Source: Bacteroidales bacterium (GTDB taxonomy: Bacteria; Bacteroidota; Bacteroidia; Bacteroidales; P3). Taken from it: DNA of 5,558 bases. Below, one piece after another: positions 10-5,558 of the stretch. The DNA lies in NCBI GenBank assembly GCA_017632095.1, contig JAGBSA010000140.1, positions 1 to 5,558 of the forward strand, in the 5' to 3' direction. How positions within the stretch are numbered: the stretch's first letter is position 1; each line of letters opens with the position of its first letter. The notes under the pieces are model-generated. The model saw only the letters and a list, made by a program, of their open reading frames with translations, did no database searches and was not told where the DNA came from. The translations under genes and the position numbers were made by a program.

Positions 10-1341
10 ATGAATACATTTAGATTGGGTGGTGTACACCCTGAAGAGAATAAGTTGGCTAGAAATCATAAAACGGAAACTTTTGCTTTGCCGTCAAAGG
101 CTGTTGTGTTTGTCAGCCAGCATCTAGGAGCTCCATCTACACCTGTTGTACAGAAAGGCGATAGAGTTAAAACTGGTCAGTTAATAGCAAAAGCTGAAGC
201 ATTTATATGTGCAAACACTCATTCACCTTACACAGGTACCATAACGAAAATAGACATGGCTGCTGACTTTAACGGTTATAAGAGACCAGCTTTTTATATT
301 GATGTAGAGGAAGATGAATGGGATGAAGGGATAGACACATCTGATACAATAGTTCGAGAAATAAAATTAGAGCCTAAGGAAATCATAGAAAGGATAAAAG
401 ATAGAGGTATAGTAGGACTTGGAGGAGCAGCCTTCCCTACTCATGTTAAGTATATGATTCCTGATGACAAGAAAGCAGAATATTTGATTATAAATGCAGT
501 TGAGTGTGAGCCATATTTGACATCAGACAATAGAGTGATGATGGAAAATGGTGAAGAGGTGTTGATTGGTATCGAAATAATGAAAAAAGCATTAGGCGTA
601 AGCTGTGCAAAAGTCGGCATAGAAAACAACAAACCTGAGGCTATAGCTCACATGAAGAAATTAGCAGCATCTTACAATGGAATAGAAATAGTGCCATTAA
701 AGACTAAGTATCCGCAAGGTGCAGAAAAGCAATTAGTGTATGCTTTGACTCAAAGAGAAGTCCCAAGTGGTAAATTGCCGATTGAAGTCGGTTGTGTGGT
801 GAATAACGTTGGTACAGCTTTGTCTATCTATCAGGCTGTGCAGAAAAACCGTCCTCTTATCGACAATGTGCTTACCTATACGGGTAAAAGCGTTAAGGAA
901 AGCAAGAATCTTTTGGTCAGAGTAGGAACACCGATTCGTTCTGTTATAGATTATTGCGGCGGATTGCCGGAAGACACAGGCAAAGTCATAAGTGGTGGTC
1001 CTATGATGGGAAAAGCAATGGTTAATCTCGATGCTCCGACTGTCAAAACCACATCAAGCATCTTGGTTATGAGCGAAAAAGAGGCTAGACGTAAGGAAGA
1101 AACCAATTGTTTGCGTTGTGGTAAATGCGTATCGGCTTGTCCGATGGGTTTAGAGCCAATTCAGTTAGCCTTACTTTCGAAACAACAACGTTGGGAGGAA
1201 GCAGAGAAGGAGTGTGCCATGGATTGCATAGAATGTGGTTGCTGTTTGTTCACTTGTCCTGCAGGACAGCCATTGTTAGACTTGATTCGTGTGGCTAAAA
1301 ACAACATAGGGGTAATCAGAAGAGAAAGAAGCAAAAAGTAA
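10..1341 (+). CDS. rnfC: Rnf electron transport complex subunit C (RnfC)
   Basis: This is the peripheral cytoplasmic subunit of the Rnf complex (ferredoxin:NAD+ oxidoreductase), the site where NAD(H) is thought to bind. The 443-residue product has the family's usual length for Bacteroidota. Visible in order are the N-terminal GGVHPEENK motif (7-15), a barrel-sandwich region (about 40-80, with GDRVKTGQ), the glycine-rich GLGGAAFPTH loop (136-145) and INAVECEPYLTSDNR (161-175) of the Complex1_51K-like NADH/FMN region. An SLBB-type region follows at about 262-320. Two 4Fe-4S motifs close the protein: C367-x2-C370-x2-C373-x3-C377-P and C406-x2-C409-x2-C412-x3-C416-P. All eight ligands are present. 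There is no long N- or C-terminal extension as in some proteobacterial RnfC/RsxC. The ATG at 10 gives the complete family N-terminus. A TAA at 3-5 could be the stop of an upstream rnfB, but only nine bases are visible. The next gene starts 6 bp after the stop, so they are surely co-transcribed. Confidence 0.97.
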   Translation: MNTFRLGGVHPEENKLARNHKTETFALPSKAVVFVSQHLGAPSTPVVQKGDRVKTGQLIAKAEAFICANTHSPYTGTITKIDMAADFNGYKRPAFYIDVEEDEWDEGIDTSDTIVREIKLEPKEIIERIKDRGIVGLGGAAFPTHVKYMIPDDKKAEYLIINAVECEPYLTSDNRVMMENGEEVLIGIEIMKKALGVSCAKVGIENNKPEAIAHMKKLAASYNGIEIVPLKTKYPQGAEKQLVYALTQREVPSGKLPIEVGCVVNNVGTALSIYQAVQKNRPLIDNVLTYTGKSVKESKNLLVRVGTPIRSVIDYCGGLPEDTGKVISGGPMMGKAMVNLDAPTVKTTSSILVMSEKEARRKEETNCLRCGKCVSACPMGLEPIQLALLSKQQRWEEAEKECAMDCIECGCCLFTCPAGQPLLDLIRVAKNNIGVIRRERSKK

Positions 1342-1347
1342 ATTGCG

Positions 1348-1869
1348 ATGAAAAAAGCCCTGTTCCTTTCGTTTATAATGATGTTTGCTTGTTTGCTATT
1401 GCAGGCTCAAGAAGAGGAACAAGCAACATACTTTAACGAAATATACCAATACTCTTTGAGCTATCCGAAATCATGGGAAGGCGAGGAGAATGAAGAAAAC
1501 GGGACAGCAACATTTTATGTGCCATTGCAGGAAGGTGAAACTGTTTATAAACAATTACAGATAAGTGTAGCAAGATGGGAAGAAGGAGATTTGAATGATT
1601 TTTTGCAAGCCACCTTTATTGAAGATGATTTGCGAAAGCTTTTTCCTGATATAACGATTCGAGATTTGGGCGGATTCAATTCAATAGATAAAGAAACACA
1701 TTCCTTTGAACTGAACTACACAATGAACGAAGAGAAAATCACGACTTTGTATTATATGCAGAAAACCGCAGACATAGTATGTATAATTTTGGCAGAGTCG
1801 CCTCAAAACGAATATGCCGTTTATAAAGAAAAATATTTGGAGATTATAAACTCACTTATAATCCATTGA
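1348..1869 (+). CDS. Exported protein of unknown function inside the rnf operon
   Basis: I do not recognise a named family. The 173-residue product starts with a clear signal peptide: KK at 2-3, a hydrophobic core at 4-18, and LQAQ with likely signal peptidase I cleavage near 20/21. Cys15 lies inside the core (MFAC) and is a poor lipobox, so a soluble periplasmic protein is more likely than a lipoprotein. The mature part is acidic (EEE at 22-24, EGEENEENG at 44-52) and contains YSLSYPKSW at 35-43. It then continues as alternating beta-like stretches and ends in a short helix-like segment (about 156-171). The 'Y-x-hydrophobic-x-YP-x-x-W' opening and size recall the PsbP/Mog1/DcrB (DUF1795) fold, which is inference only. 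It starts 6 bp after rnfC and ends 28 bp before rnfD, on the same strand and with similar codon use. This implies joint expression and suggests a role beside the periplasmic face of Rnf, where RnfG and the RnfD flavin reside. It is not a standard Rnf subunit. The stop is TGA, showing that TGA terminates translation in this genome. Confidence 0.88.
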   Translation: MKKALFLSFIMMFACLLLQAQEEEQATYFNEIYQYSLSYPKSWEGEENEENGTATFYVPLQEGETVYKQLQISVARWEEGDLNDFLQATFIEDDLRKLFPDITIRDLGGFNSIDKETHSFELNYTMNEEKITTLYYMQKTADIVCIILAESPQNEYAVYKEKYLEIINSLIIH

Positions 1870-1897: not shown

Positions 1898-2854
1898 ATG
1901 GGATTACTTACAGTATCGGGCTCTCCTCACGTTCAGAGCAAAGAGACAACCAAATCAATAATGTGGAACGTTGTAATAGCGTTACTGCCAGCCTTATTAG
2001 TAGGTATATATTACTTTGGCTTCAGAGTATTGTCGCTAACCTTGGTATCTATTGCGGCATGCTTGTTGTTCGAATGGTTAATTCAAAAATTCCTGCTTAA
2101 AGGCAAGGAAACAATAAGCGATGGGTCTGCTGTGATAACAGGAATCTTGCTTGCGTTCAATCTACCTTCAGATGTGCCGTCTTATATCGTCGTAATAGGA
2201 GCATTTGTTGCGATAGCCATAGGCAAGATGACCTTTGGAGGCTTGGGCAAAAACCCATTCAATCCGGCATTGGTTGGACGTGTTTTCTTGTTTCTTTCAT
2301 TCCCAACCGAAGTAGCGAAGTCTGAGTGGCCTAAACCGCAACCTTTATTCGATAGTAAGGTAGTTGATGCTTTGAGTGGTCCGACTCCATTGGCAGAAAT
2401 CGGGGCAAAAAGCTCACAAAATTTGGATGCCTTGCAACTATTTCTTGGTTCAACAGGCGGAAGCTTTGGAGAAGTAGCAGCAATTGCAATCTTGCTTGGA
2501 GGAATCTACCTTTTGATAAGACGAGTAATCACTTGGCATATACCGGTTACTTTCATAGCATCGGCAGGTCTGTTTGCAGGCATACTATGGCTTTGTGGCG
2601 TAACAGTAAATCCTGTATATCATCTGTTAGCAGGAGGATTGATGTTAGGAGCAGTCTTTATGGCGACAGATATGGTAACGAGTCCGGTAACTAAAAAGGG
2701 ACAACTGATATTTGGAGTAGGCTGTGGATTGCTTACAATTTTGTTCCGTTGTTTCGGACCTATGCCAGAGGGAGTTTCTTTCGCAATTCTTATCATGAAT
2801 GCTTTGACTCCGCTTATCAATAAGATGTGTAAACCGAAACGATTCGGATATTAA
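1898..2854 (+). CDS. rnfD: Rnf electron transport complex subunit D (RnfD)
   Basis: RnfD is an integral membrane flavoprotein of the NqrB/RnfD family that takes part in electron transfer across the membrane and ion translocation. The 318-residue product fits the family length. It has several hydrophobic membrane segments (for example about 22-65, 77-112, 191-209, 214-235, 240-256 and 270-290). Family motifs seen are SPHV near the N-terminus (9-12), GGLGKNPFNPALVGR (114-128) and ATDMVTSPVTKKG (256-268). The covalent FMN site expected for ApbE flavinylation is D157-A-L-S160-G-P-T163, with T163 as the attachment residue. The usual S/T-G-A-T has proline in place of alanine here. The start ATG at 1898 gives the conserved N-terminus (LTVSGSPHV) and follows an A-rich, SD-less 28-bp gap, as is usual in Bacteroidota. 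It sits between the unknown exported-protein gene and rnfG. NqrB is the alternative relative, but the neighbouring RnfC with two ferredoxin motifs makes this Rnf, not Nqr. Confidence 0.96.
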   Translation: MGLLTVSGSPHVQSKETTKSIMWNVVIALLPALLVGIYYFGFRVLSLTLVSIAACLLFEWLIQKFLLKGKETISDGSAVITGILLAFNLPSDVPSYIVVIGAFVAIAIGKMTFGGLGKNPFNPALVGRVFLFLSFPTEVAKSEWPKPQPLFDSKVVDALSGPTPLAEIGAKSSQNLDALQLFLGSTGGSFGEVAAIAILLGGIYLLIRRVITWHIPVTFIASAGLFAGILWLCGVTVNPVYHLLAGGLMLGAVFMATDMVTSPVTKKGQLIFGVGCGLLTILFRCFGPMPEGVSFAILIMNALTPLINKMCKPKRFGY

Positions 2855-2877: not shown

Positions 2878-3456
2878 ATGGCAAAGATGGAATCTTCATT
2901 AAAGAATATGATTTTGAGTTTGACGCTTATTTCGTTAAGTGCCTCTGCACTTTTGGCTGGTGGATATGTCTTGACGAAAGAACCAATCGATAAGGCGGCT
3001 CAAGACAAAAAAAATAACGCAATAAAAGAAGTCTTACCAAAAGGCGACATAACAATAGAAGAAGCCGTTGAGATAAAACTTGAAGGCTATGAAGATGCTT
3101 TTGTGATTTATCCTGCAAAACAAGGCGATAAATTAGTCGGCTGTGCTATTGAAACCTACGACAACAATGGTTACGGTGGTAAAATTAAAACCATGGTAGG
3201 TTTAGACGCCGAAGGAAAAGTTATAAACTACTCTATATTGGAGATGAACGAAACTCCGGGATTGGGAGCCAAAGCAACGGATTGGTTTAAGGAAAAAGGA
3301 GACATCAGAGGTAAGAATCCGTCAGATGCAAGTTTCAAAGTAACAAAAGATGGAGGAGAAATCGATGCAATAACAGCTTCAACCATCACCTCAAGAGCCT
3401 TTATCGCATCTATAACAAAAGCATACGAAGCATTCGTTAAGTATCAAGAACAATAA
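2878..3456 (+). CDS. rnfG: Rnf electron transport complex subunit G (RnfG), FMN-binding
   Basis: RnfG is a membrane-anchored subunit with a periplasmic FMN-binding domain (FMN_bind; NqrC/RnfG family). The 192-residue product has one N-terminal membrane segment (about 9-32) that keeps the rest outside the cytoplasm. NETPGLGAKA (124-133) is the family's E-T-P-G-L-G motif. The covalent FMN site is D163-A-I-T166-A-S-T169-I-T, with T169 as the probable phosphodiester-linked flavin carrier; the typical D-x-x-T-G-A-T reads D-x-x-T-A-S-T here. The start is taken as the ATG at 2878, preceded by a purine run (GAGAGAG at 2869-2875) that is the most SD-like site in the operon. A second ATG at 2887 (M4) would also leave the membrane anchor intact. 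The gap from rnfD is 23 bp and to rnfE 15 bp, so translation is probably coupled within the operon. Confidence 0.96.
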   Translation: MAKMESSLKNMILSLTLISLSASALLAGGYVLTKEPIDKAAQDKKNNAIKEVLPKGDITIEEAVEIKLEGYEDAFVIYPAKQGDKLVGCAIETYDNNGYGGKIKTMVGLDAEGKVINYSILEMNETPGLGAKATDWFKEKGDIRGKNPSDASFKVTKDGGEIDAITASTITSRAFIASITKAYEAFVKYQEQ

Positions 3457-3471
3457 AAAAAACTTACAGCA

Positions 3472-4056
3472 ATGAACAAATTTAAGATAGTAATAAACGG
3501 AATCATCAAAGAAAACCCTGTATTCTGCCTTTTGCTCGGAATGTGTCCTACTTTGGGAACAACCACATCGGCAATCAACGGTATGGGAATGGGATTATGT
3601 ACAACCTTTGTTTTGATTTGTTCGAACGCAGTCATCTCTTTGCTCAAGAATGTCGTGCCAGACAAAGTGCGAATCCCTGCATTCATAGTCATAATCGCTT
3701 CTTTCGTAACCTTGTTGCAACTTTGCATGCAAGCATACCTGCCTTCGTTGTACGAAAGTCTCGGATTATTCATTCCGCTCATCGTTGTAAACTGTTTGAT
3801 CCTTGGAAGAGCAGAATCATTCGCCAGCCGCAACACACCGATCGACTCCATATTTGACGGAATCGGCATGGGATTAGGATTTACCTTAGGTTTGACCACA
3901 CTTGGTTTGATAAGAGAACTATTGGGCAATGGTTCAATATTTGGATATAAGTTCATAGGAGAAGCAGACGGTATGATAATTTTCGTACTCGCACCCGGAG
4001 CATTCATCGTTCTTGGTTATTTGATTGCATTGGTTAATAGATTGAAATCGAAGTAA
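3472..4056 (+). CDS. rnfE: Rnf electron transport complex subunit E (RnfE)
   Basis: RnfE is a membrane subunit of the NqrD/NqrE/RnfA/RnfE family with about six transmembrane helices. The 194-residue product has NPVFCLLLGMCPTLG (15-29), INGMGMGLCTTFVL (35-48) and FIPLIVVNCLILGRAE (99-114). The GRAE(S/A)FAS continuation and the MCPTL motif mark it as RnfE rather than its paralogue RnfA. Cys25 and Cys108 are the two conserved cysteines that, with the equivalent pair of RnfA, are known in this family to ligate the iron-sulfur centre buried between the subunits. It starts 15 bp after rnfG in an A-rich stretch without a Shine-Dalgarno site. It is the last gene of the operon here: an intrinsic terminator begins about 30 bp after its TAA, and no rnfA follows within the remaining 1.5 kb. 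Long open frames on the other strand and in another frame across this gene are coding-bias shadows. Confidence 0.95.
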   Translation: MNKFKIVINGIIKENPVFCLLLGMCPTLGTTTSAINGMGMGLCTTFVLICSNAVISLLKNVVPDKVRIPAFIVIIASFVTLLQLCMQAYLPSLYESLGLFIPLIVVNCLILGRAESFASRNTPIDSIFDGIGMGLGFTLGLTTLGLIRELLGNGSIFGYKFIGEADGMIIFVLAPGAFIVLGYLIALVNRLKSK

Positions 4057-4555: not shown

Positions 4556-5558
4556 ATGAAGATTACGAAATTAAAGATTGCATTTATCTTAGGATTATTT
4601 GTGTGTTTGCCGTTTTTATCTAAGGCTCAATACGATACGATGTATATAAACAATGCCTACAGAAGTCAATATATGTTTCCTGAACTGAAAAGCCCTGCTT
4701 GCCAACAAGTGATTGAAGATTTCAAGTTTTGGAATGGAGGAACATTGAATATGATATGTCAGAGTCACGGGGTAGGAGTTTATGAAAATTGTGTCAAAAA
4801 GATTGGGCATAGGTTTGATATAACAACAGACACCGTAAAACTGATAGGTACAGGAATACTTATGAGTTCTCCTAGGACTATGCTTCCGAATATTCCTGAT
4901 TATGACAGTATAACAGTGAGTATTTGGAACTCAAACTTGACCACGGAATTATATTCCAAGCGAGTATTCAGGGCAACCTATCATCCTGACTTACCTTGGG
5001 AAGAACGAAGACAAGAACAAGCTATTCTTGAAGTTTTGTTTAATGATACCATTGCGCTAACAGAAAGTTTTTATGTTATAGTTTCCACTCCTTGTTATGA
5101 TAGTCAAGAAGAAACTAAAACTTGGATTCATGGAATACTTGCAAGACCTGATGACTATAATGTTGAGACAGGGGTGATAGATTATGGTTATAATCCAAAG
5201 TATTATCCAACGCTTATGTGGTGTGATGGAAGAGAGCCTATACAACTTGATTTCCCTGACACTTGTTACTATGTTCAGGAATTTCTTTCAACTTGTGTGG
5301 GTTGCGATGAACTGATGTATCCGGAATGTGCTTACGAGCCACACTACGAATACCCAATGATTTTTCAAGCAGCGGGAATATTCCCAATCAAGGCTGTTGA
5401 AAACGGAGTGGTGGAAGACTCAGTCAATTCTGCTATTTCAAGAGTTGAACTTGAAAACAGAGTAACTATTTCTCCAATTCCTGCAAAAGATGTGTTAAAC
5501 ATAAGTTGTGATGATAATATTATCGGAATTGAGATTAGGGACGAGGTTGGTCGATTGT
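4556..5558 (+). CDS. Secreted protein with T9SS (Por) sorting domain, 3' end cut off
   Basis: This frame starts at ATG 4556 and runs open for 334 codons to the window edge, so the gene is incomplete at the right. The product opens with a signal peptide (charged 1-7, hydrophobic 8-21, likely cleavage around KA24/Q25, typical of Bacteroidota). The body has no domain I can name. It looks beta-rich (for example TVKLIGTGILM at 92-102, SITVSIWNSNL at 117-127) and holds ten cysteines after the signal peptide, including C247-x2-C250 and C258. From V303 the sequence VTISPIPAKDVLNIS, followed by IEIRDEVGRL, matches the beginning of a type A C-terminal sorting domain (consensus near YPNPAKDxLxI...GRxV). 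Such a domain directs export through the type IX secretion system and anchoring or release at the cell surface. Roughly 30-45 residues should remain beyond the window. The diagnostic PNP is PIP here. It is driven by its own promoter at 4321-4351 and has no visible link to Rnf. Confidence 0.85.
   Translation, partial: MKITKLKIAFILGLFVCLPFLSKAQYDTMYINNAYRSQYMFPELKSPACQQVIEDFKFWNGGTLNMICQSHGVGVYENCVKKIGHRFDITTDTVKLIGTGILMSSPRTMLPNIPDYDSITVSIWNSNLTTELYSKRVFRATYHPDLPWEERRQEQAILEVLFNDTIALTESFYVIVSTPCYDSQEETKTWIHGILARPDDYNVETGVIDYGYNPKYYPTLMWCDGREPIQLDFPDTCYYVQEFLSTCVGCDELMYPECAYEPHYEYPMIFQAAGIFPIKAVENGVVEDSVNSAISRVELENRVTISPIPAKDVLNISCDDNIIGIEIRDEVGRL

Follow-up and report, generated by a model that had tools for sequence, protein, structure and literature searches.

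What is a gene for an exported protein doing inside the operon of Rnf, the respiratory ion pump of several anaerobes? The question is raised by a 5,558-base stretch of DNA from a Bacteroidales bacterium (hereafter the window), which is an entire contig (G000:C152) of a 1.5 Mb genome, G000, that is 73% complete. The open reading frame (ORF) at positions 1348–1869 of its plus strand, labelled X here, encodes 173 amino acids and lies between rnfC and rnfD. The rnf order published for the Bacteroidales group, in the part of the source available, is rnfBCDGEA (PMC4014512), and a gene between rnfC and rnfD is therefore a departure from the norm. X proved to be a lineage-specific insertion under purifying selection, and we propose, with moderate confidence, that its product is a periplasmic Rnf accessory that probably docks on the outer face of RnfD and RnfG and stabilises the complex.

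X was searched by sequence and by profile in 101 family genomes, sampled evenly from a larger group, and all available genomes of g1, the genus of the window genome (6 genomes), and of g10, a related genus (11 genomes), were then searched. The sequence search gave true matches in 15 genomes from these two genera only (5/6 in g1 and 10/11 in g10, one copy per genome), and the profile search recovered the same 15 together with three short noise matches; weak matches of the sequence search to two g4 genomes, and a second match in G058, were not X. No X was found in the other ten genera among the 101 family genomes, and no copy away from rnf in any genome searched. X was located directly upstream of rnfD in all 15 cases, with rnfC on its other side in 14; the contig of the fifteenth (G036) begins inside X. 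Where both sides were visible, 6–37 bp separated X from rnfC and 12–58 bp separated it from rnfD. Such a distribution is that of a gene which a lineage has fixed in its rnf operon. The one g1 genome without X, G046, is 72% complete and has no rnfD over the cut-off.

The preliminary description of this DNA, made from the letters alone, had pointed to an intact signal-peptide-bearing gene between rnfC and rnfD, at distances of 6 and 28 bp, and this was confirmed: the ATG of X follows the rnfC stop by 6 bp and X ends 28 bp ahead of the rnfD start. X is a real gene, not a chance ORF, because orthologues occupy the same place in 14 further genomes and the ratio of non-synonymous to synonymous substitution rates (dN/dS) is 0.09–0.27. 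The values for five pairs, two of which share G054, were 0.086, 0.188, 0.132, 0.128 (dS saturated) and 0.269, that is, 0.6 to 4.7 times those of neighbouring rnf genes. In an RnfD tree covering 83 of the 98 genomes with rnfD over the cut-off, g1, g10 and g12 form one clade (support 97/93), and the X tree splits the same two genera, g1 and g10. Three changes in X are needed on the RnfD tree, at least two by the starred branches; one possible history would be a single gain in the ancestor with losses in g12 and G010.

The hint of a PsbP/DcrB-like fold, likewise taken from the letters, was borne out by structure prediction. An AlphaFold model of X (predicted local distance difference test 90.4, predicted template modelling score 0.79) has a central antiparallel sheet with flanking helices, arranged in the order of PsbP, which places the modelled protein in the PsbP/Mog1/DcrB fold class, and PsbP-type chains led the Foldseek matches to this model, including cyanobacterial PsbP and 9grx_0 and 7wff_f, chains of supercomplexes of NDH and photosystem I. 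The records of 9grx_0, 7wff_f and 7f9o_a name the supercomplex only, and we take these chains to be PNSL1/PPL2, the PsbP-like lumenal subunit of chloroplast NDH; a further fold match, BT_1490 of Bacteroides (3hlz), is presumably near PsbP_2 (PF18933). Against PsbP_2 itself the window X scored 17.4 bits (cut-off 27) and the G026 orthologue 34.1 bits, over the cut-off, with 8/15 proteins of the X alignment (A1) matching at E<=1. Against PsbP (PF01789) the window X scored 12.8 bits, under the cut-off of 23.5, with 6/15 A1 proteins matching at E<=1, and one relative (P0003) has PF01789 in its record.

PNSL1/PPL2 is 11–15% identical to X, belongs to a complex unrelated to Rnf and is one of several lumenal proteins, whereas X has no such partners in its operon. 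X differs from PsbP and CyanoP of photosystem II (PF01789) in sitting in an rnf operon and scoring below the family cut-off, and from PsbP_2 in that the 24 distant relatives with fetched neighbourhoods lie outside rnf operons, several being lipoproteins by eye. The lipoprotein DcrB, as well as Mog1, Tsi3 and EagT6, are found in different contexts and share 4–13% identity with X.

X is also extremely acidic. When the first 21 residues are removed, each of the 14 complete X proteins has a net charge between -14 and -25. Among 253 signal-like ORFs of 120–300 amino acids from the fetched loci, selected with a crude custom signal filter and including 12 X rows, X provides 12 of the 13 most acidic and fills the first eleven places unbroken; for the X of G031, which failed the filter, and the window X, which was outside the set, 10 and 5 of the 253 rows, respectively, are equally or more acidic. 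Charge per residue is -0.09 to -0.17 in X and -0.006 to -0.062 in ten distant PsbP-like relatives (two of them identical), without overlap. Part of the acidity of the g10 proteins (L005-L010, L018-L021) comes from an acidic insert, some 6 to 21 residues long, that separates strands 4 and 5, and those of g1 are acidic without it; strong acidity is thus conserved despite an identity of only 27–31% between the window X and the g10 proteins.

The window has the gene order rnfC, X, rnfD, rnfG, rnfE, followed by the beginning of an unrelated exported ORF, and each of the four rnf genes is over its NCBIfam cut-off:
1348..1869, plus strand: X, 173 amino acids, protein with predicted PsbP fold and signal-like N-terminus, between rnfC and rnfD
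1348..1407, plus strand: signal-peptide-like N-terminus of X, residues 1–20, likely cut before Q21 (by eye)
10..1341, plus strand: rnfC, 443 amino acids, NADH-side cytoplasmic subunit (TIGR01945, E 3.1e-163)
1898..2854, plus strand: rnfD, 318 amino acids, membrane flavin subunit (TIGR01946, E 4.6e-105)
2878..3456, plus strand: rnfG, 192 amino acids, periplasmic FMN subunit (TIGR01947, E 6.2e-41; PF04205 FMN_bind)
3472..4056, plus strand: rnfE, 194 amino acids (TIGR01948, E 4.8e-81), with rnfA not next to it

The N-terminus of X, MKKALFLSFIMMFACLLLQA-QEEE, is signal-peptide-like and lacks a good lipobox as judged by eye, and the protein is predicted to be exported. The glutamine that follows the likely cleavage site does not vary in 15 aligned rows and is nearly invariant in 26, and A1, as an alignment, has no aligned cysteine just ahead of Q21 of the kind found in a DcrB-type lipobox. 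X is probably co-transcribed with rnf; a consensus scan of positions 1200–2000 on the plus strand gave no terminator or promoter-like site, the promoter model being of Escherichia coli type and weak for Bacteroidales.

That rnfC and rnfD are normally adjacent, as had been stated at the outset, holds in the family: in 58 of the 62 X-less junctions read, the two genes are no more than about 105 bp apart (gaps were taken from tblastn ends and are possibly off by some bases). Four gaps are longer, two of 209 and 276 bp with no sizeable gene, one of 692 bp and one of 1,558 bp. The 692 bp gap, in a single g6 genome (G006; L052 923-1375, L115 4229-4681), holds a gene for a cysteine-rich DUF3795 protein; that of 1,558 bp, in the g4 genome G083 (9% contamination), holds two unrelated signal-like ORFs of 260 and 211 amino acids (L076 1000-2440, in rnfD-sense orientation). 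Six further genomes (three g12, three g4) have rnfD without rnfC directly upstream, three of the 101 have no rnfD over the cut-off, and 15 more have an rnfD that was not fetched. Among 80 named loci, which overlap with the other genome set, the junction was visible in 75, with X present in 4 and absent in 71. The nearest named RnfC records are from Bacteroidales genomes (79–81%), among them two that carry X and come from water buffalo and yak gut; of those with a genus name, the nearest is from Candidatus Onthomorpha intestinigallinarum (80%), its contig ending within rnfC.

As far as the available text describes it, the Rnf structure of Acetobacterium woodii has six subunits with RnfG as the periplasmic-side one, the electron moves outward via RnfA/E to the FMN of mobile periplasmic RnfG and back via the RnfD flavins, and Na+ exits on the periplasmic side (PMC11889175). 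An acidic protein that is exported after being made between RnfC and RnfD would encounter RnfD and RnfG before the other subunits, and these two, with flavins facing the periplasm and with the next genes made after X, are the proposed encounter partners. X may act as PsbP does, by keeping a mobile redox complex in its functional form. PsbP is described as retaining Ca2+ and Cl- in photosystem II, and CyanoP and PPL1 as aiding its assembly (excerpts of PMC12661325), while PNSL1/PPL2 is listed as part of a lumenal NDH subcomplex (PMC3813922, in part). PsbP-fold proteins act on membrane redox complexes at the side corresponding to the one predicted for X. X is a natural, testable candidate for an accessory on the periplasmic side, where the mobile RnfG flavin domain sits, and suggests a parallel between Rnf and photosynthetic complexes, with the same fold (predicted for X) on the outer face of membrane redox machines. 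A bolder alternative effect would be the holding of ions at the outer face, here Na+ where Rnf releases it. X may be a seventh subunit of Rnf, specific to the lineage, that covers RnfG/RnfD as an acidic cap and holds or gates Na+ at its exit, the PsbP fold having been recruited again independently of photosynthesis; we offer this tentatively, likening the cap to PsbP holding ions in photosystem II and to PNSL1 steadying chloroplast NDH.

Several observations weigh against a core or an accessory role on Rnf. X does not qualify as a core Rnf subunit, because it is no general part of rnf operons, being absent from 62/76 rnfC-rnfD junctions read in the family. It is truly absent from the g10 genome G010, which at 99% completeness encodes RnfB, C, D, G and E and leaves 44 bp between rnfC and rnfD; all four g12 genomes also lack it, and X is therefore dispensable. 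It evolves faster than Rnf (G000-G026 identity 39%, versus 81% for RnfC), PsbP folds do many unrelated jobs, and 15/15 would equally result if both genera had inherited one ancestral insertion. When residues invariant with X and absent without it were sought in 12–15 X-bearing and 12–19 X-less genomes per subunit, none were found in RnfD, RnfG or RnfE, and therefore no interface can be named; RnfB and RnfC had one such residue each. RnfG of G010 differs at 1/70 such sites in this co-variation test. Charge complementarity between X and RnfG was considered and rejected, RnfG net charge being independent of X (G036, with a partial X, was printed among the X-less rows of that comparison). Set against 8 of the 10 X-bearing g10 genomes, G010 had 4.7–9.7% changed sites in each of RnfB, C, D, G and E, without excess in the periplasmic subunits, and the X-bearing G021 was similar (4.5–11.3%). 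The first interpretation, an accessory, assembly or regulatory factor or a lineage-specific subunit, is partly supported.

It is also possible, if far from assured, that X is a transient assembly factor, comparable to CyanoP for photosystem II or to PPD1, which assists photosystem I, and that it holds RnfD/RnfG during insertion or flavin attachment and then leaves. Such a factor would fit nearly as well as the proposed stabilising accessory, sequence being unable to separate a transient from a stable partner, but the role does not need the strong acidity of X.

X could instead be a hitchhiker, an exported PsbP_2-like protein that entered the rnfC-rnfD junction once, in a common ancestor, and has been retained for some unrelated function in the envelope, its sole tie to rnf being the promoter; we consider this rather unlikely. 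The wider family is scattered. An order-level search of 393 genomes gave matches in 23, four of them g1 and the other 19 weaker (E 3e-10 to 0.009), and the full-length relatives inspected are of the PsbP_2 kind, either exported proteins or lipoproteins; a class search of 139 genomes found PsbP_2 in 13, over the cut-off in 5, and a profile of X reached 21 proteins in a set of 5.8 billion. No rnf gene was detectable with the window Rnf proteins in 24 neighbourhoods of distant relatives at order and class level (4.6–13.5 kb, some cut by contig ends), and rnf linkage is therefore peculiar to X among what was searched. The association of homologues with rnf, on which the preliminary description had made its interpretation depend, accordingly holds for the orthologues and not for distant relatives, and the rnf loci of close relatives carry X throughout g1 and g10 save for the genomes named, and not in g12. 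This scatter, the lack of co-varying residues in RnfD, G and E, and the occasional entry of unrelated ORFs into the C-D junction (L052/L115, L076) would all suit a hitchhiker. However, X has stayed in place in 15/15 genomes although the proteins of the two genera share no more than about 30% identity, which makes a hitchhiker less likely; it never occurs elsewhere in the genomes searched, and the unrelated C-D inserts were found in one genome each among those read.

Very unlikely is a shield against antibacterial type VI toxins that exploit Rnf as a foothold: for the Bacteroidales toxin Bte2 to act, the target must have the membrane part of Rnf (RnfD, G, E and A, with an intermediate effect of RnfG loss, in the accessible portion of PMC12718326) and several type VI immunity proteins and chaperones have the same fold as the X model, but this fold is common to many unrelated families, no toxin-like gene was recognised beside X (each of the 14 complete loci has rnfC and rnfD as flanks), dN/dS is well under 1, and no Pfam, NCBIfam or source name points to an immunity protein in X or its two first relatives, one A1 protein having a weak Imm30 match (E 0.017). 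As this toxin gains its foothold through Rnf, X may also be relevant to gut ecology.

Lineage-specific additions to the six-subunit Rnf have precedents in RnfH of Azotobacter and the multihaem cytochrome c of Methanosarcina acetivorans Rnf (PMC12174285, in part), and RnfH, RnfX and RnfY are named as Rnf proteins in the available text of PMC4014512. RnfH is cytoplasmic, whereas X is predicted to be exported; the Methanosarcina cytochrome carries haems, whereas X has no haem motif by eye. Our literature search for Rnf-associated proteins found none of PsbP type.

Other features of these loci were noted in passing. In two of the four g12 genomes (G033, G043; L061, L062) rnfD stands alone, with no rnfC or rnfG alongside, and the rnf operon is therefore breaking up there. 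The rnfA of G000 is apart from rnfDGE (G000:C212:6537-7115, L077); among fetched loci it adjoins rnfE in g6, g8 and g11 and was not seen adjoining in g1, g2, g3, g4, g5, g10 and g12. The exported ORF at window positions 4556-5557, truncated by the contig end, has no Pfam match; its visible C-terminal part presumably resembles the start of a type IX secretion sorting domain.
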